Below are positions 2,937 through 32,367 of a stretch of DNA of 35,105 nucleotides, in pieces. The DNA is from an uncultured Lachnospiraceae bacterium. Its GTDB lineage: Bacteria > Bacillota > Clostridia > Lachnospirales > Lachnospiraceae. How positions within the stretch are numbered: the first letter of the stretch is position 1; every line of letters starts with the position of its first letter. The position numbers and the translations under genes are program-made. The notes beneath the pieces are model-generated. The model was given only the letters and a program-made list of their open reading frames with translations. It searched no databases and had not been told where the DNA came from. The stretch is taken from positions 1 to 35,105 of the forward strand of contig CATBDC010000042.1 of assembly GCA_949502235.1 (NCBI GenBank). The letters are read 5' to 3'.

Positions 2937-3971
2937 TTACTCCTGGGCTTCCTTCAAATAGCTATATTCCGGTTCCTCATGCTCGATATCAATGATTCGG
3001 ACGTCTTTTGCAGAGGCGATTAATTCCTGGGAATGTGTGGCAGCGATAAACTGAACATTGGGAAATACTCCGCGAAGTGCGTCGATCACTTTTCCCTGCC
3101 ACTGGGAATCTAAATGCATATCCAGCTCATCAATCAATACAATTCCTTTTGTCTTGGAAATCTCCTCCTGTTTATGGGGATTTAGCATAGCCATCCGGCA
3201 GGCCATATCAAAAACCATCCATATTAGGGACTGGAAGCCTGCGCTTTGATGTCCCACCGGCAGGATGCGCTGTCCATCCTGATACATGAAATCGTCTAAC
3301 TTTTTATCGTAAAAGAATTTACATGATTCTTTGCCGTTCATCCGGTTTGCGAAATCAGCCGCTGTATTCATGACTGCTTCATATTCTTTGGTATTTTCCA
3401 TCTTAGAGCACCAGTTAAACAGAAACCTTTGATTGGTTTCTTCCGATAAAGCATCCATATATCCCACTGTTCTTGCATATTTTTTACGAAATATATTTTC
3501 CGTCTTTTCTAATCTCAATGAGCAGGCCCTTCCCACTCCCTGAAAACTTAATAAAGGCAGGTCTAACTCCGCTTTCTTAGAAAGCCGCCGCAGGATGGCC
3601 GCAGTATCTTTGGGCTGAATCGAGCTTTTGGAGGCATGGATGCTGGTTCGGCTCATAATCCAGCGGACGGGTATATTAATTCCTTCGACACTCGCAACCA
3701 GAGTGACTTCAACCGGAACGGAGTAACTGCACTCTAATGTGCCCTCGGCAGATGTGCTGTATACTTTGCTGATCTCGTCTCTGGTAAAATGTGTGACGGA
3801 AAAGCCTTCGATTCCCGAAAGGATTGCAGTAAGGCCAGAGGACAGGGCATTGAGGATAGAGGTCTTCCCTTTTCCGTTCGTTCCTTTTATTAAATGAAAG
3901 CCTGGCTTAAATTCCAGACGCAACTGTTCAATTCCTCTAAAATTCGTTATCTGCGCATTGATGAAATGCAT
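2937..3971 (-). CDS. AAA ATPase, SMC/RecF/OLD-like (AAA_15/AAA_23 type)
   Basis: A cytoplasmic ATPase of the ABC/SMC superclass. Walker A is GTNGKGKTS (residues about 30-38), a signature-like HQSAGFQSLIW lies near residue 240, Walker B is IVLIDELDMHL (about 277-287) and an H-loop is ATHSQE (about 311-316). The compact 344-residue chain has no TOPRIM or nuclease domain, so it is not a complete OLD nuclease. Such stand-alone ATPases are found in defence and DNA-repair contexts, but no partner is visible here and no function can be named. The start at 3971 is chosen because AGGAGG lies 6 bases before this ATG; the longer frame to 4049 would overlap the gene's own -10 box. It is transcribed away from the polysaccharide operon, and the invertible promoter currently also points at it. 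Confidence 0.85.
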   Translation of the reverse strand: MHFINAQITNFRGIEQLRLEFKPGFHLIKGTNGKGKTSILNALSSGLTAILSGIEGFSVTHFTRDEISKVYSTSAEGTLECSYSVPVEVTLVASVEGINIPVRWIMSRTSIHASKSSIQPKDTAAILRRLSKKAELDLPLLSFQGVGRACSLRLEKTENIFRKKYARTVGYMDALSEETNQRFLFNWCSKMENTKEYEAVMNTAADFANRMNGKESCKFFYDKKLDDFMYQDGQRILPVGHQSAGFQSLIWMVFDMACRMAMLNPHKQEEISKTKGIVLIDELDMHLDSQWQGKVIDALRGVFPNVQFIAATHSQELIASAKDVRIIDIEHEEPEYSYLKEAQE

Positions 3972-4154: not shown

Positions 4155-4187
4155 AAATTTCGCAGAGTATCATCCTCTGCGAAATTT
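4155..4187. repeat. left inverted repeat (IRL) of invertible promoter
   Basis: A hairpin with perfect 13-bp arms (AAATTTCGCAGAG and its complement) around the 7-base centre TATCATC. Bases 4159-4184 are an exact reverse complement of 4381-4406. The asymmetric centre (TATCATC here, GATGATA in the other copy) shows that the two copies are in inverted, not direct, orientation. Confidence 0.9.
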
Positions 4188-4406
4188 ATTTTAAAAAGAA
4201 CATTATTTATTGTAACTATCTAAGGCAAATAAGTCAATACCTAAAATATTTTTGTAATAATTTGGAGAAATTTTGTATGTAAAACATAGGATAAGTTCCA
4301 ATTATTTTATAAATTTATTGAGTAATTTAAGAAATTTATAGATTGAATCAGATAATTTTCCGGCCGAATAAACACAAAATTTTCGCAGAGGATGATACTC
4401 TGCGAA
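4159..4406. other. putative invertible promoter element upstream of polysaccharide operon
   Basis: Two 26-bp perfect inverted repeats bound 196 bp of A/T-rich DNA that contains a strong promoter and no open reading frame. This architecture (inverted repeat, promoter, inverted repeat, then capsule operon) is the established form of invertible promoters in gut bacteria. In the orientation shown the promoter faces left, so the operon would be OFF. Inversion would put the -35 at about 4328-4333 and the -10 at about 4351-4356 on the plus strand, with transcription starting near 4363 just before the right repeat. This also accounts for the 342-bp gap between the ATPase frame and the first antiterminator gene. 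Inversion itself is inferred; no recombinase gene is in the window. Confidence 0.8.
4209..4237 (-). promoter_or_regulatory. strong promoter inside the invertible segment, facing left (OFF for the operon)
   Basis: On the minus strand, TTGACT (4237-4232), a 17-base spacer and TACAAT (4214-4209) form a near-consensus housekeeping promoter, the best in the window. Transcripts would start near 4202 and run through the left hairpin toward the AAA ATPase gene. No comparable promoter was found on the plus strand of the segment. Confidence 0.85.
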
Positions 4407-4409
4407 GTT
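4378..4409. repeat. right inverted repeat (IRR) of invertible promoter
   Basis: It contains the exact reverse complement (4381-4406) of the left repeat. It folds into a stem of about 10 bp (TTCGCAGAG with CTCTGCGAA plus a T-G wobble) with loop GATGATA. The loop contains the ATG (4392) of the first antiterminator frame. In the ON state this hairpin would be in the 5' leader RNA, where it could also be a target of the NusG-like proteins (inference). Confidence 0.88.
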
Positions 4410-4922
4410 GGAGGGATTCATATCTGGTATTTATTTCCCTGCCGTAAGCAGGAAGAACAAAAGACTCTGAATTTGTGCAGAAGATGTTTTTCACAAGAAG
4501 CGTTACAGGACACATTTCTTCTAACCTATGACTGTATGCGCCGCTATCAAGGAACGTGGCATTTGGAGAAGAAGCTGATCTTTCCGGCAAATGTGGTTCT
4601 GGAGAGCAAAAATGAGAAACTTCTGGAATATGAGATTAGACAGGGTTGTGATGAGATTGGAAAAAGCAGAGAAATCCTCAAAATCAGTCCGGATGAAGAA
4701 AATTTTCTTAGATTTCTGTGCGGAGACAAAAAGCATGTGGGAATGTCCAGAGGCGTGATTTTTGAAGGAGTTACGAAAGTGACAGAGGGACCGCTTAAAG
4801 GGTTAGAAGCGCAGATTTGTAAGATTGACCGACATAAGCGGCTGGCAAGGCTTGAAACGCCGCAAGGTGAGAATGTCAGATACGTATTGGCTGGATTAGA
4901 GATTATGGAGAAGGTTGTATGA
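4392..4922 (+). CDS. NusG-family transcription antiterminator, LoaP-like (copy 1)
   Basis: Specialised NusG paralogues ride on RNA polymerase and let it read through terminators in long biosynthetic operons. The NGN domain starts at IWYLFPCRKQEEQK, with TYDCMRRYQG-WHLEKK then FPANVVLES where most relatives have FPGYVFLES. The KOW-like C-terminal segment is TEGPLKGLEAQICKIDRHKR. The start is doubtful. The only in-frame ATG (4392) lies inside the loop of the right inverted repeat with no properly spaced Shine-Dalgarno. GGAGG at 4410-4414 is 7 bases before an ATC at 4422, exactly where the paralogues have ATG followed by TGG-TAT. Either an 11-residue extension is made or ATC is used as a weak start. 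The gene overlaps the next by ATGA. Confidence 0.82.
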   Translation: MILCEVGGIHIWYLFPCRKQEEQKTLNLCRRCFSQEALQDTFLLTYDCMRRYQGTWHLEKKLIFPANVVLESKNEKLLEYEIRQGCDEIGKSREILKISPDEENFLRFLCGDKKHVGMSRGVIFEGVTKVTEGPLKGLEAQICKIDRHKRLARLETPQGENVRYVLAGLEIMEKVV

Positions 4923-5455
4923 CAGAGCGTATTAGCTGGTATGTAATGCGTACAGTTTTGGGGAAAGAGCAGGAAGCTTGCGCACTTGTGGAAAAGAAGA
5001 TTGACCAAAGCTTGTGGGAATGCTGCAGAATCCTTAAGAAGCAGCAGTTGTTCCGAACACAGGGAAGATATCTGCTTTGCAGAAAAGAGATGTTCCCAGG
5101 CTATATTTTTGTAGAGACAAGATTTCCTGGGGAGCTGGCAGAAGAATTGCAGAAAGCAAGGCAATTTCCGCAGCTAATTGGAAGCGGTAGAGCAGAGCTT
5201 GTATCCATAGAGCCGGAGGATTTGAGGTTTCTTATAAATGTATGCGGCAGGAAGCTTGCGCAGGATATGAAGCTGTCTACCGTGGAAGTAGATGAAAAAG
5301 GACAGGTGAAAAGCGCTGCCGGAGTGTTAGCGCCATATCTGAATCAGATTACCAGACAGAGACTTAGGCACCGGTATGTGATGGCGAGAGTGCAGCTATT
5401 TAATCGGCAGGAGGAGGTGCTGTTTGGGATTCGGATGGAGGGAGATCCGGCGTAG
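4919..5455 (+). CDS. NusG-family transcription antiterminator, LoaP-like (copy 2)
   Basis: 178 residues. The NGN domain has SWYVMRTVLGKEQEAC at the start and an intact FPGYIFVET, the usual core motif. The linker and C-terminal part (about 125-178) have an APYLNQITRQRLRHRY segment followed by a strand pair ending FGIRM, resembling the KOW-like end of LoaP-type proteins. The ATG overlaps the stop of copy 1 (ATGA), implying translational coupling. It is expected to act co-transcriptionally on this operon, although which of the three copies does so is unknown. It is much diverged from copies 1 and 3, so this is not a recent duplication. Confidence 0.85.
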   Translation: MTERISWYVMRTVLGKEQEACALVEKKIDQSLWECCRILKKQQLFRTQGRYLLCRKEMFPGYIFVETRFPGELAEELQKARQFPQLIGSGRAELVSIEPEDLRFLINVCGRKLAQDMKLSTVEVDEKGQVKSAAGVLAPYLNQITRQRLRHRYVMARVQLFNRQEEVLFGIRMEGDPA

Positions 5456-5636: not shown

Positions 5637-6209
5637 ATGTGGTATGTAATGCAGGTAATTTCTGGCAAGGAAAGAAAAACTGTTATGATGATGAAACAAA
5701 TTCTTTCCTGCGATGTTTTAGAAAATTGTTTTATTCCGATACGCAGACTTAAGAAAAAATATAAAGGGAAATGGCAGGAAATAACCGAAAAGCTGTTTCC
5801 AGGTTATGTTTTTTTAATCTCTGGACAGCCACAGTTATTGTACGATGAATTGGAGAAAATTCCGACGTTGACAAAGCTGTTGGGAAGCTGCGAGGAGTAT
5901 TTTACCCCATTGTCAAAATCGGATATACACTTTTTACAGAACACATTAGAAGAAAAGAATATTAATCTCAAAGAGTATCAAGAACAATCAGAGACACCTA
6001 CAGTTGAATTATCGAAAGTGGTTGTGAAAGATAACAGGCAAATACAGATTCTCTCTGGACCGCTTACGAATCTGGAGGGACAGATTAAAAAGGTAAACCT
6101 GCATAAGAGAATAGCAATAGTAGAAACAGAATTTATGGGAAGCCGGTCGATGATACATCTGGGGATTGAGATTGTAAATGAGGAAATAGTATTTCAGGAG
6201 AATAGATGA
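5637..6209 (+). CDS. NusG-family transcription antiterminator, LoaP-like (copy 3)
   Basis: 190 residues with a full NGN domain (MWYVMQVISGKERKTV, IPIRRLKKKYKGKWQE, LFPGYVFLIS) and a canonical KOW-like domain (ILSGPLTNLEGQIKKVNLHK, ending HLGIEIV). Of the three copies this one looks most like a functional LoaP/UpxY-type antiterminator. The start at 5637 is chosen over 5517 because GGGAGG (5627-5632) precedes it and MWYV is the normal NusG N-terminus; the upstream 40 codons cover the palindrome and repeats. Its stop overlaps the start of the aminotransferase gene, tying it to the biosynthetic operon it probably controls. Confidence 0.9.
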   Translation: MWYVMQVISGKERKTVMMMKQILSCDVLENCFIPIRRLKKKYKGKWQEITEKLFPGYVFLISGQPQLLYDELEKIPTLTKLLGSCEEYFTPLSKSDIHFLQNTLEEKNINLKEYQEQSETPTVELSKVVVKDNRQIQILSGPLTNLEGQIKKVNLHKRIAIVETEFMGSRSMIHLGIEIVNEEIVFQENR

Positions 6210-15940: not shown

Positions 15941-17071
15941 ATGAGTGAATCAAAAAGCTGTTTTCTGTGCAGCACCACATTTCAGCTTATTACAGCTATG
16001 CAGATCTGCTATGGGAGAAGGGAAAAGGCGGATTTATATATTCTCCCTTTATGTCCCAATGGAAGTGTATATAGAGACAGAATCAGTGAGGTGAAACTGT
16101 TTCATAAAGTTTCTGTTATTGACGGTGACAGCTTGTCTTGTTTATATAAGAAACAGAGCGCTTTGCGATATAATATAAACTCCTTTTTGTGTTATCTGAA
16201 TATTAAAAAAATAGTAAGTAAGATGATATCTGTTGACGCTTCGTATGATAAATTTTATTTTTCTAGTGTTACGCCGTACTCTAAACTAATTCAGTTATAT
16301 TTTTATAGATATTCTAAAAAGACAGAAATTATTCTGTTTGACGATGGTGAGGGAAGTTATGATGACCCATATATTATAGGTAAATTGTCAAAAGCGGATT
16401 ATGTAGCAAGAAAAATTTTGTTTCATTATAGGATGAATACAAAACTTATTCTTAGATATTTATATTCTCCGTCATTATATACTGAGATTAATGGCCATGG
16501 ATATCGTGTAAAAAAAATTCAAAATAAACTTAGTAATGATGAGTTTGTTAATATGATTAATCATATTTTTGAGTTTAATGAGATAGATAAGATTTCAGAA
16601 AAATATATAATTTTGGATGTAATTAAAGAGATAAGATTCACACAGACAGGAAAAGAAAAATTGCTGTCCATATATAGAAAAATATCAGATATTGTTGGAA
16701 AGGAAAATTTAATCATAAAACAGCATCCTAGAGATAAAGATACATTAAGTGAAAGCTTTCAGGTCTATAATAATCAGAGTATTCCTTTAGAAATTATAGA
16801 ATTAAACTCCAATATTCAAAATAAAGTTATTATTACTGTTGCAAGTACAGCTATATTTACCACAAAAGTTTTACTTAATCAGGAACCCATTGTCATTTTA
16901 CTCAATAAATTATTTTTGGAAGATGATCTGTTGTACAATACCGAGGGAAGAAAAGACGGAAAAGTTCAACGGTTTAATTTGGAATGTTTTAACTTATATA
17001 ATGACAAAAATCGGTTTATGCTTCCGGATAGCATTGAAATACTGGAACATATGCTGAGATCAATACAGTAA
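15941..17071 (+). CDS. GT52-like glycosyltransferase (possible sialyl/nonulosonate transferase)
   Basis: 376 residues. It starts with CFLCSTTFQLITAMQICYGR, which matches the N-terminus of family 52 transferases. An acidic loop ILFDDGEGSYDD, then LIIKQHPRDKD and an STAIFTTKVLL segment follow, the layout of GT52 and polysialyltransferase-like enzymes that use CMP-nonulosonates and related donors. This fits the NeuB/NeuA genes a little downstream (inference). The start at 15941 has AGGTG 8 bases upstream; the ATG at 15908 overlaps the previous gene. The sequence is clearly more A/T-rich than its neighbours, as is the next gene, suggesting separate acquisition of these two. Confidence 0.65.
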   Translation: MSESKSCFLCSTTFQLITAMQICYGRREKADLYILPLCPNGSVYRDRISEVKLFHKVSVIDGDSLSCLYKKQSALRYNINSFLCYLNIKKIVSKMISVDASYDKFYFSSVTPYSKLIQLYFYRYSKKTEIILFDDGEGSYDDPYIIGKLSKADYVARKILFHYRMNTKLILRYLYSPSLYTEINGHGYRVKKIQNKLSNDEFVNMINHIFEFNEIDKISEKYIILDVIKEIRFTQTGKEKLLSIYRKISDIVGKENLIIKQHPRDKDTLSESFQVYNNQSIPLEIIELNSNIQNKVIITVASTAIFTTKVLLNQEPIVILLNKLFLEDDLLYNTEGRKDGKVQRFNLECFNLYNDKNRFMLPDSIEILEHMLRSIQ

Positions 17072-17094
17072 ATTTATAAGGGTAGTATATAACT

Positions 17095-18204
17095 ATGATT
17101 TATTTGATTACTTTTCTTCTTGCTTTTCTTGCATCTATTATGCTCCAAAATGCATTAGATAATGGAAAGAAAAAAAAAGTTATATTTTGGTCAACCGCAA
17201 TCATACTTATTTTGAGTGTTCTTGCAGGACTAAGAGATGTATCTGTTGGAACAGATAATTTTGCATACAGGAGAGACTTTTTAGCATTTTCCTCTTATAC
17301 ATCGTTTAGACAAATTACGACAACGGGTTCTTTAGAGATTTTATTTGATCTTCTCTTTTTTATAATAAGTCGTTTTACTCAAGACTACCATGTTGTATGT
17401 TTTGCGACCGAATTTTTGACGATGTTTTTTGTTATAAAGGGATTAATCTATTTTAGAAATAATGGATATTTAACATCTATTCCGCTAGGTATTTTAGTTT
17501 GGTTATTCTGTCAATATTGTAATTTCTATAATATTGTTCAACAGGGAATGGCAGTTGCCATTATTTTTTATGCATTAAAATACTTATTAGAAGATAAAAA
17601 AATAGTTTATCTGTTATTTGTATGTTTTGCAATGCTATTTCATATATCAGCTATTTTGGGAGTTGGACCGTTGTTGATATATATGATAGTAAAATCAAAA
17701 TTTTCAACTATAAAGCTTTTTCTATGGATTGGAATACTGATTATTAGCATGGCAGGAATTTCATATGTTGGGAATTTCGTAATTCGACTTGGATTATTAA
17801 GTGAAAGTTATGCTATTTTTTTAAATCGAAGTTTTGAGTTTTCCTTTAAACAGGTATTATATAGGCTTCCAGTTTTGCTTTTGTCCAGTTTTCATTATAA
17901 ATATATTGAACCGAAAGTGAAAGAGTATAAGTTTTGGGTTGCAATGCTCTGGGTAGAAGCAATATTGAGTCAATTAGCAATGCTTTATGGGCCGGCATAT
18001 AGAGTTAGTTTATACTGTTGGGTTTCAAATATGATAATTATACCTTCATTTACGGTTGCTTATAAAAAAGATAATAGGTTAATTATTGTGGCAGGTATCA
18101 TTGTATATTTAATACTGTATTGGAGTTATTTTTATATTTACAATGCGTATAATTTTCTATATCCTGTCTACCCATTTGTATCAGATATACTACAAAGTAT
18201 TTAA
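17095..18204 (+). CDS. EpsG/Wzy-like polysaccharide polymerase
   Basis: 369 residues, with about ten hydrophobic helices and the EpsG-family N-terminal pattern (helix, then GLRDVSVGTDNFAYRRDF). Wzy polymerases join lipid-linked repeat units on the outer face of the membrane. It is the only polymerase candidate in the operon, pairing with the Wzx at 21071. It is very A/T-rich, typical of wzy genes. An A8 run lies near its 5' end (17170-17177). No chain-length regulator is in the window. Confidence 0.85.
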   Translation: MIYLITFLLAFLASIMLQNALDNGKKKKVIFWSTAIILILSVLAGLRDVSVGTDNFAYRRDFLAFSSYTSFRQITTTGSLEILFDLLFFIISRFTQDYHVVCFATEFLTMFFVIKGLIYFRNNGYLTSIPLGILVWLFCQYCNFYNIVQQGMAVAIIFYALKYLLEDKKIVYLLFVCFAMLFHISAILGVGPLLIYMIVKSKFSTIKLFLWIGILIISMAGISYVGNFVIRLGLLSESYAIFLNRSFEFSFKQVLYRLPVLLLSSFHYKYIEPKVKEYKFWVAMLWVEAILSQLAMLYGPAYRVSLYCWVSNMIIIPSFTVAYKKDNRLIIVAGIIVYLILYWSYFYIYNAYNFLYPVYPFVSDILQSI

Positions 18205-18230
18205 TCAATTTAATCAAGGAGAATAAAAAG

Positions 18231-30318: not shown

Positions 30319-32367
30319 ATGGAGACGGGAAAAAGGAAGATTTTGGCGGTATTACTTGGCGTGCTGCTTGTTTGCACCATGTCAGGATGCAGGCGGGACG
30401 GCGGTGAGACAGAAACCGGTATTGCCAAAGCAGCAGATACGTCTTCCCACGCGTCTGTAAGTACGGTGACCCTTACAGAAGGAAAATACAGTGAAGAAAA
30501 GCTGGATGATACTTGGGATGAAAACCAGGCAGTCTATTTATGCCTTGAAAATGATAAGATTACTATAGAGGAGCGTACTGGCTTGGAGAAGGGAGATGGG
30601 GCTGCCCTTAAAGATAAAGTGGAGATTACTAAGAGCACTGCTGTCATCAAAAGTGCAGGAACCTATGTTTTTTCTGGAACGCTAAAGGATGGTCAGATCA
30701 TTGTAGATGTGGATAAGGAGGAAACGGTCAGGCTGGTTTTTAACGGAGTCTCTCTGACCTGCACTAGTTTAGCGCCTGTTTACTTAAAGGGCGGCAACGT
30801 CATCATCACACTGACGGAGGGGACAGAGAATACTCTTGAGGACGGCAGTGTTTACGAGTTTGAAGATGAAGGGGCAAAAGAACCAAAAGCAGCGGTTTTT
30901 TCAAAAGACGATTTGACTTTTAACGGAACAGGGACGCTTCATGTAATCGGAAATTATTGTCATGGGATTCAGTGTAAGGACGATTTGAAATTTATCAGCG
31001 GCACTTACATCATCTCAGCAGTCAATGACGGGATTGTGGGAAAAGACAGCGTATCCATTCGGGATGGACATTTTACCATAGAAAGCGGTGACGACGGAAT
31101 CAAGGCTTCTAACACCGAAGATTCGGATAAGGGTTATGTTCTCATTGAAAATGGGTTTTTCCAGATAATGGCCGATGGCGATGGAATTCAGGCAGAGACG
31201 CTTCTTCGGATAAACGGCGGTGATTTTGAGATTACCACAGGAGATGGAGGCCAGAATGTGAAGACAGTCTCTGATATGCATAGCCCTGACGCCAGACAAG
31301 GAAGCAAAACTGGAATGTTGGGTGATAAAGGGGCAGAGATGGAGGGGCGAATACCAGAAGGGGGAATGGCACCGCCAGAAGGAGACATACCAGAAGGGGG
31401 AATGGCGCCGCCAGAAGGAGACATACCAGAAGGGGGAATGGCGCCGCCAGAAGGAGACATACCAGAAGGAGGAATGACGCCGCCAGAAGGAGACATACCA
31501 GAAGGAGGAATGACGCCGCCGAAAGGCGACATGCCGGCTCACGAAGATGGGGAATCTGAGACTGTCAGCACAAAAGGGTTAAAATCCTATGTAGAATTAA
31601 TTATTGCAGGAGGAGAATTTAATCTGGACACACAGGATGACGGAATCCACAGTAATCAAAATGTTATGGTTCAGGGAGGCTCAATCACCGTTTCCACCGG
31701 AGACGACGGAATTCACGCTGAGAAAACGTTGATTGTAGATGGCGGAAGTATAGACATTCAGAAAAGCTACGAAGGACTGGAGGGATTTGATATTGTCATT
31801 AAAGATGGGGATATAAAGATTGAAGCCTCAGACGACGGAATCAACGCTGCAGGAGACTCTGAAGCCGTTACGGAAGAAAAGAAGAAGGATTTTATGGCAG
31901 ACGAGGATCAGGGCGCCTCTATGACCATCAACGGAGGCATTATATACGTCAACGCCAATGGTGACGGACTGGACGCTAATGGAGACATTTTCATAGGCGG
32001 AGGCGAGGTCACGGTACACGGGCCGGCTGACGGTGGAAACGGTACCCTGGACTATGCGGCCTCCTGCAGGATAACAGGCGGCACATTGGTTGCCATCGGA
32101 AGCATTGGAATGGCTCAGAAGCCAAGCGAGGATTCCACGCAGGTGTCGCTGGTATTTCAAATGGACAAGGCAATCCAGGCGGGAGCCGTTATTTCCCTGA
32201 AAGACAAAGAGGGGAATACGCTTGCCGAGACGGTTACAGAGAAAACCGCCCAGTGGTTTGCAATATCATCTCCAAACCTGTCGGTAGGGGAGGAGTATAT
32301 ATTTTGTGCAGGAACGGCTGAAAAAGAAGTAAAACCAACCCAGATTGTCAGTCAATTTTCCTTTTAG
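30319..32367 (+). CDS. lipoprotein with Cthe_2159-like beta-helix carbohydrate-binding domain
   Basis: 682 residues. A lipoprotein signal ends in M-S-G-C24. The rest is a right-handed beta-helix with repeated turns such as DDGIKASN, DDGIHSNQN, DDGIHAEK, DDGINAAG and GDGLDANG, the Ca-binding acidic turns of the Cthe_2159 (polygalacturonate-binding) family. It is interrupted at about residues 345-404 by five tandem 12-residue repeats of the type IPEGGMAPPEGD. ATG 30319 is chosen because it gives the lipoprotein signal; the frame open from 30178 would overlap the DUF4956 gene. It probably sits on the outer face of the membrane and binds acidic glycan. The third gene of the VTC module; a CotH kinase gene, frequent in such modules, is absent here. 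Confidence 0.88.
   Translation: METGKRKILAVLLGVLLVCTMSGCRRDGGETETGIAKAADTSSHASVSTVTLTEGKYSEEKLDDTWDENQAVYLCLENDKITIEERTGLEKGDGAALKDKVEITKSTAVIKSAGTYVFSGTLKDGQIIVDVDKEETVRLVFNGVSLTCTSLAPVYLKGGNVIITLTEGTENTLEDGSVYEFEDEGAKEPKAAVFSKDDLTFNGTGTLHVIGNYCHGIQCKDDLKFISGTYIISAVNDGIVGKDSVSIRDGHFTIESGDDGIKASNTEDSDKGYVLIENGFFQIMADGDGIQAETLLRINGGDFEITTGDGGQNVKTVSDMHSPDARQGSKTGMLGDKGAEMEGRIPEGGMAPPEGDIPEGGMAPPEGDIPEGGMAPPEGDIPEGGMTPPEGDIPEGGMTPPKGDMPAHEDGESETVSTKGLKSYVELIIAGGEFNLDTQDDGIHSNQNVMVQGGSITVSTGDDGIHAEKTLIVDGGSIDIQKSYEGLEGFDIVIKDGDIKIEASDDGINAAGDSEAVTEEKKKDFMADEDQGASMTINGGIIYVNANGDGLDANGDIFIGGGEVTVHGPADGGNGTLDYAASCRITGGTLVAIGSIGMAQKPSEDSTQVSLVFQMDKAIQAGAVISLKDKEGNTLAETVTEKTAQWFAISSPNLSVGEEYIFCAGTAEKEVKPTQIVSQFSF
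31351..31530 (+). repeat. five 36-bp in-frame tandem repeats
   Basis: Units begin ATACCAGAAGGGGGAATG or a close variant at 31351, 31387, 31423, 31459 and 31495, each encoding 12 residues. They differ by a few bases, mainly A/T at the MAPP/MTPP codon and G/A in the glycine codons. The near identity points to recent expansion and probable copy-number variation without loss of frame. Confidence 0.95.

Follow-up and report, generated by a model that had tools for sequence, protein, structure and literature searches.

A very probable invertible promoter cassette upstream of LoaP-like genes and a polysaccharide operon in an uncultured Lachnospiraceae bacterium

The window analysed here, a 35,105-nucleotide stretch of DNA, is the entire contig C42 of a 3.78-Mb assembly of an uncultured Lachnospiraceae bacterium (G000; 101 contigs, 95.7% complete). 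We are confident that its positions 4184 to 4381 constitute a phase-variable promoter cassette that would be inverted by a tyrosine recombinase and would drive a LoaP-like antiterminator gene together with a polysaccharide operon. The segment is probably flipped by a site-specific recombinase, which would switch the surface-sugar cluster on and off. The initial annotation had proposed an invertible promoter caught in the OFF orientation, and this proposal held up: segments are flipped between relatives, spacers are identical within site pairs, the sites are helically phased, and a recombinase family co-occurs with them.

Two exact 26-bp inverted repeats at 4159-4184 and 4381-4406, as had been claimed from the sequence, enclose the promoter-bearing segment, and extended repeats of 32 bp (4156-4187 and 4378-4409) are 94% identical. 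They hold a left recombination site, TTCGCAGAG-TATCATC-CTCTGCGAA (4159 to 4183), and a right site, TTCGCAGAG-GATGATA-CTCTGCGAA (4382 to 4406), both listed without a strand, each with 9-bp arms around a 7-bp asymmetric spacer; the two spacers are reverse complements of each other. The invertible segment (4184 to 4381, likewise without a strand) measures 198 bp between the 25-bp sites and 223 bp from site start to site start. With up to three mismatches allowed, the 25-bp site pattern occurs in the window at these two places only, and 100 shuffles gave no match. Judged from their sequence, the window repeats have the arm-spacer-arm shape of a tyrosine-recombinase site. The features expected of such sites, inverted arms around an asymmetric spacer of 6-8 bp that is the same in both partners, were found in the window and in its relatives, where the 9-7-9 shape recurs in 66 pairs. 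Each window repeat contains a hairpin because the arms of such a site are inverted. The annotated hairpin is thus real (the RNA fold of 4376-4440 has −20 kcal/mol with a z of −3.07), but it is not the unusual detail it was taken for, being the expected shape of the site and common to the whole set of relatives.

The inverted repeat pair surrounds a promoter in the window, as expected of an inverton. This promoter-like sequence, TTGACT-17-TACAAT, lies on the minus strand at 4209 to 4237, where it had been annotated; it matches the consensus at 10 of 12 positions and faces away from the operon (OFF), and the same promoter faces the gene in the related locus L165. Taken alone, TTGACT-17-TACAAT is not beyond chance: the scanned 3 kb contained 9 promoter-like sites, and shuffles gave 6.3 (sd 2.7). 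The support for the window promoter comes from the relatives. A comparable plus-strand promoter had been denied; the best match is indeed on the minus strand, but a weaker plus-strand match, TTAAGA-18-GATAAT (9/12), lies at 4327-4356. Mirroring the promoter about the spacer centres (4171 and 4394) would place the transcription start near 4363 after inversion. The OFF-oriented promoter points to an AAA/SMC-like ATPase gene (2937-3971, minus strand), which is PtuA-like, far below the cut-off (159.5 versus 500 bits).

Relatives were collected by scanning the LoaP1 alignment over named genomes and keeping the best 80 of 371. A 9-7-9 site pair lies upstream of 66 of the 75 LoaP-headed relatives that have at least 300 nt of upstream sequence (best 80 of 371), whereas such pairs turned up in none of 225 dinucleotide shuffles and, among control stretches, in 1 of 77 downstream and 1 of 69 upstream ones. 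The 9-7-9 finder gave no pair at the other nine of the 75 loci; L209 (the same locus as L060), pairless by this finder, has a shorter pair by another. The 66 pairs include L215, an unrelated sequence with a tied promoter call, and four pairs with GTCGCTTAA arms (L236, L239, L242 and L243). The finder did not require the spacers to match. They were nevertheless the same at 7 of 7 positions within all 66 pairs, as strand exchange across the spacer demands, with 43 distinct left spacers across the 66 pairs and all 110 mismatches falling within the 1188 arm positions. The idea that spacers serve as unique addresses was rejected, as they recur in one genome (TAATCTA three times in IMSAGC_019), so cross-locus exchange would be possible.

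Among the 63 short segments (198-251 bp), the spacing from site to site clusters near 199, 210, 220, 231, 241 and 251 bp, which fits an integral number of 10.5-bp helical turns (R = 0.713 for a period of 10.5; the highest value, 0.715, is at 10.4). None of 5000 sets reached the observed maximum in a jitter test on 57 genome-distance pairs. Our first phasing p-values were too small because the segments partly share ancestry, and the clustered p-value is fairer: collapsing similar segments gave R = 0.73 for 36 clusters and 0.66 for 19 clusters (p = 2e-4), and the 27 distinct distance values alone gave R = 0.50. The phasing offers a mechanistic handle on the joining of two sites about 20 helical turns apart. 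When 397 genomes of the bacterial family were searched with the site pattern at up to one mismatch, there were 129 forward matches in 51 genomes among the matches listed, versus 19 in 18 genomes, also among the matches listed, for the reversed control pattern. From the matches listed, nine short or middle-sized pairs were examined: four precede a LoaP-like gene by profile, one more does so by eye, and four do not. A weak match at L005 (G032), sitting in a coding stretch, was rejected as chance.

By consensus matches, 55 of the 66 site pairs read OFF, their best promoter facing away from the gene, 10 read ON with the promoter directed at the gene, and one call is a tie. Segments more than 62% alike formed 243 pairs: 225 could be aligned directly, and the remaining 18, which involve only five ON loci, required one member to be flipped. 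Promoter calls agree with alignment orientation in 243 of 243 pairs, which is a check of the calls, not a separate proof, since both come from the same sequence. The comparison of L222 (Candidatus Mediterraneibacter intestinigallinarum) with L231 (Candidatus M. surreyensis) is proof of inversion among related genomes: the segments are 94% identical when one is flipped and 51% when aligned directly, and their flanks are 96% identical over 300 nt upstream and 99% over 400 nt downstream. The window segment and that of L165 (IMSAGC_019) are 70% identical flipped versus 55% directly, with the same spacer and the same promoter, in surroundings that share 77% identity downstream and no likeness upstream. 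This IMSAGC_019 switch, the closest other relative of the window switch among the best 80 of 371, is ON. The segment of Sporofaciens musculi WCA-9-b2 is 99.2% identical to that of the window and has the same OFF orientation, and all nine S. musculi LoaP1 loci in the set (best 80 of 371) are OFF in the assembly. A check of related strains for the flipped segment had been suggested with the initial annotation, and it thus returned opposite orientations among related loci in two comparisons, L222/L231 and window/L165. Given the relatives, inversion of window-type switches is very likely.

In the mechanism we propose, a tyrosine recombinase would bind the 9-bp arms of both sites, whose separation is close to a whole number of helical turns, and strands would be exchanged across the 7-bp spacer common to the pair, turning over the segment 4184-4381. 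In the orientation seen, the promoter would fire away from the operon. After inversion, transcription would begin near 4363, cross the right site and continue into the LoaP-like gene, whose product may help RNA polymerase through the long polysaccharide operon.

Downstream of the switch, long genes of mostly polysaccharide type run on the plus strand from 4422 to about 28,690, which bears out the annotated capsule-type operon; we infer that this run of about 24 kb is one transcript. Three LoaP-like NusG paralogues come first (4422 to 4922, 4919 to 5455 and 5637 to 6209, all plus strand), followed by about 22 kb of predicted surface-polysaccharide biosynthesis genes (6206 to 28693, plus strand), namely a DegT aminotransferase, a PglD-like acetyltransferase, sugar transferases, a glycerophosphotransferase, an EpsG-type polymerase, NeuB, a cytidylyltransferase, a flippase and epimerases. 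LoaP proteins were defined by NCBIfam NF033641 with its curated cut-off of 125 bits, which only the third copy exceeded (148.3 bits); we call the first (98.4) and the second (78.0) LoaP-like because both fall below it. Against the UpxY model (cut-off 100 bits), the second copy scored 21.5 and the third 44.9, and the first had no match. Tandem LoaP-like genes are usual, with at least two on the strand in 57 of 80 loci (best 80 of 371), and three in a row recur (loci L164, L181, L218, L232, L237 and L155). Excerpts of PMC12691694 describe a UNCG-type RNA hairpin in the LoaP target leader of B. velezensis. No such hairpin with a stem of at least 4 was found in the window between 4300 and 6700, and there was no enrichment near the 80 related loci. 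The repeat hairpins were rejected as LoaP recruitment RNA, because UNCG loops characterise the known LoaP hairpins and show no enrichment here; an RNA element of another kind may reside in the leader hairpins.

The first LoaP-like gene has ATC at 4422 as its apparent start codon, 7 nt behind a Shine-Dalgarno sequence GGAGG (4410 to 4414, plus strand). This ATC precedes a conserved Trp, where some relatives have ATG. At the start position, the 80 relatives (best 80 of 371; L164-L243) have ATC in 56 cases, ATT in 6, ATG in 17 and TTC in one gene that is cut short; with the window included, the count is 57 ATC of 81. Among the 63 ATC/ATT genes, 32 have no ATG, GTG or TTG downstream of the preceding in-frame stop and ahead of that codon, and 57 have no canonical start there preceded by a Shine-Dalgarno-like word; the other six have one. 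From these counts, the gene appears to start at AUC or AUU in the window and in 62 of the 80 relatives, with a Shine-Dalgarno sequence at its normal spacing. The right site contains an in-frame ATG (4392), which was rejected as the gene start: it has no Shine-Dalgarno sequence ahead and is absent from relatives. If true, an AUC start in a bacterial regulator family would be a rare non-canonical start kept across genera. Our literature search on AUC start codons with NusG or infC gave nothing on LoaP among the matches listed.

The recombinase family that co-occurs with these switches is set apart in a profile search, with at least 377 bits versus at most 178 bits for other integrases; the high scores of profile members arise by construction, as the profile was built from family members (L030, L262, L263 and L275 lie outside it). 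The family has a long type of about 372-400 aa, which has an extra N-terminal stretch and sits inside 1.4-kb inverted cassettes, and a short, arm-less type (about 316-345 aa) whose only domains are PF14659 and PF00589. The phage-integrase catalytic domain PF00589 is present in the six members scanned, short and long. The short recombinases of C. bilis, S. musculi and G018 are 58-66% identical and form one clade with a support of 1.000. We took a census of 31 genomes, comprising G000 and 30 of the 36 named genomes behind the 80 loci (the six left out are those behind L166, L194, L220, L221, L235 and L240). A short-type gene with at least 55% identity to the C. bilis one occurs in 19 of the 31, the G438 copy having an internal TGA; in G452, which has no site pair by the finder, the short-type gene is in two pieces. 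The short type was present in 19 of 24 genomes with a pair and in 0 of 7 without (Fisher p = 3e-4, with classes assigned by hand and kinship ignored). Besides G000, four pair-bearing genomes in the census (G427, G443, G450 and G451) have no short recombinase. Across 394 family genomes, six have the short type, and among the matches listed five of these have sites and the sixth, G230, has none. In G230, no site was found genome-wide at up to one mismatch among the matches listed, nor at two mismatches within 12 kb around its short recombinase. The only family recombinase of C. bilis is a short one, and all four sites of that genome lie in its two LoaP switches. A family recombinase lies within the examined flanks of 11 of 80 loci (best 80 of 371), 8 of the 11 with a site pair; in L222 and L231, about 11 nt separate the end of the gene from the left site. 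The enzyme acting on the LoaP switches is, from its distribution, likely to be the short-type tyrosine recombinase.

The short-type recombinase was not found in the G000 assembly, which is 95.7% complete. In S. musculi, its gene adjoins the rpsL-rpsG-fusA-tuf genes; the G000 neighbourhood of these genes is 87-88% identical to that of S. musculi and has other genes at the recombinase's place. These observations could mean that a once-active switch has been locked OFF in the window strain through loss of the recombinase, with the operon silent or otherwise driven. We consider this unlikely, as both window sites are perfect over 25 bp and G000 contains two family members of the long type. Moreover, identity to S. 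musculi is 98-99% along most of the 35-kb window contig (L313 and L316 comparison) versus 88% for the fusA region, so the contig may stem from an S. musculi-like cell with the enzyme or have moved recently. Either the contig comes from such a cell and was mis-binned, or it moved recently, or the switch uses another enzyme or is locked.

Such another enzyme could be one of the only two family recombinases of G000, both of the long type (contigs C1 and C84; 44% and 35% identical to the C. bilis one). The C1 gene lies in a 1.4-kb segment (L049, 6293-7713) between inverted TTCGCAATA-N7-TATTGCGAA sites. G000 contains three exact copies of TTCGCA-N13-TGCGAA, each belonging to the C1 or the window pair, and a fourth copy, with one mismatch, completes the C1 inverted pair. 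The C1 segment, which immediately precedes a small ORF, looks like a recombinase cassette that inverts itself, and 11 of 11 long pairs (1.06-1.5 kb) examined from the matches listed enclose a homologue of the C1 recombinase. Action of the C1 or C84 enzyme on the window sites would fit these shared site letters and the membership of long and short recombinases in one family, but we think it doubtful: the inner arm bases differ (ATA versus GAG), the genome of C. bilis, with its four sites, has no family recombinase other than one of the short type, and tandem TGAC[CG] repeats are found inside 9 of 13 long cassettes and inside none of the 63 short segments, segment length being uncontrolled in this comparison. 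The same repeats occur in 6 of 7 segments of 365-432 bp (the repeat loci examined were the L144-L158, L161 and L227 segments), and they are perhaps arm-type sites for the long recombinases. That the repeats are fixed, serving as a two-way terminator or RNA leader hairpin with no inversion or with rare homologous recombination between the 26-bp repeats, is very improbable: each repeat folds as an RNA hairpin and the right one has a terminator-like score on the minus strand, but in the operon direction the hairpin has no U-run, a 26-bp repeat offers little length for RecA-type exchange, spacers are the same within pairs yet varied between loci, the sites are helically phased, and opposite orientations occur between near-identical flanks.

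Phase-variable capsules are a classic of Bacteroides, where the Mpi/UpxY system has invertible promoters before a NusG-paralogue antiterminator gene heading a capsule operon, with several loci per genome that are mostly OFF. To our knowledge, capsule phase variation in gut Clostridia is far less described. The phase-variable cassette favoured here resembles the Bacteroides system, in that window-type switches precede a NusG-paralogue gene heading a capsule operon, number several per genome and are mostly OFF. It differs in phylum, in its recombination sites, in having LoaP-like genes instead of UpxY, and in its sigma-70-type promoter; the candidate enzyme is integrase-like and may also differ from Mpi. 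Capsule promoter inversion is known, and the Lachnospiraceae form with LoaP appears to be new; we add the site type, the family, the helical phasing, a candidate enzyme and the AUC start. In Clostridioides difficile, RecV reportedly controls switches for flagella, CwpV and signalling genes. By description, these are alike in that a tyrosine recombinase acts on multiple invertible segments ahead of surface genes in a member of the Clostridia, and unlike the LoaP-headed sugar operons in the genes controlled. UpxY-linked invertons are treated in PMC11892184, excerpts of which also link inverton group 139 with invertase group 35, a tyrosine-type recombinase (33 invertons, 32 in Clostridia), and describe a group 139 inverton of Clostridium sp. 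D5 with 26-bp repeats around about 205 bp and orientation shifts in reads. Its geometry matches the window switch. Identity of the window family with group 139 is a lead, and the family was possibly already sampled, unnamed, in that survey. In Eggerthella lenta, according to excerpts of a preprint (PMC13174815), inversions of about 2 Mb at 16-bp repeats move capsule clusters relative to LoaP, and its authors found no adjacent recombinase. Like the window switch, these involve inversion at short inverted repeats with LoaP near capsule clusters, but the repeats are 16 bp long and of other sequence, and the inversions are far larger. Our literature search on LoaP with phase variation found only this preprint.

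Similar switches stand before similar clusters in related gut bacteria. We see about an even chance that they constitute a Lachnospiraceae counterpart of the Bacteroides capsule switchboard, with LoaP-headed polysaccharide operons that number as many as nine or more in a genome and are each preceded by a helically phased invertible promoter of about 200 bp, and one dedicated recombinase without an arm-binding domain acting in trans. The conserved AUC start would keep the antiterminator low, so that only the operon with the flipped promoter makes enough for read-through. The site motif, the candidate enzyme and the named genomes (S. musculi with nine switches, C. bilis with two) make capsule switching directly testable.

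Our literature search on Sporofaciens and Ruminococcus gnavus gave nothing on a LoaP-headed switch system among the matches listed. The only long window stretch without an S. musculi match, 16927-18208, holds the EpsG-type polymerase gene (17095-18204), so the window and S. musculi loci probably make different polymers. The tandem repeats of a Cthe_2159-type protein gene at about 31351-31532 align with S. musculi in several registers, which suggests copy-number variation of these repeats.
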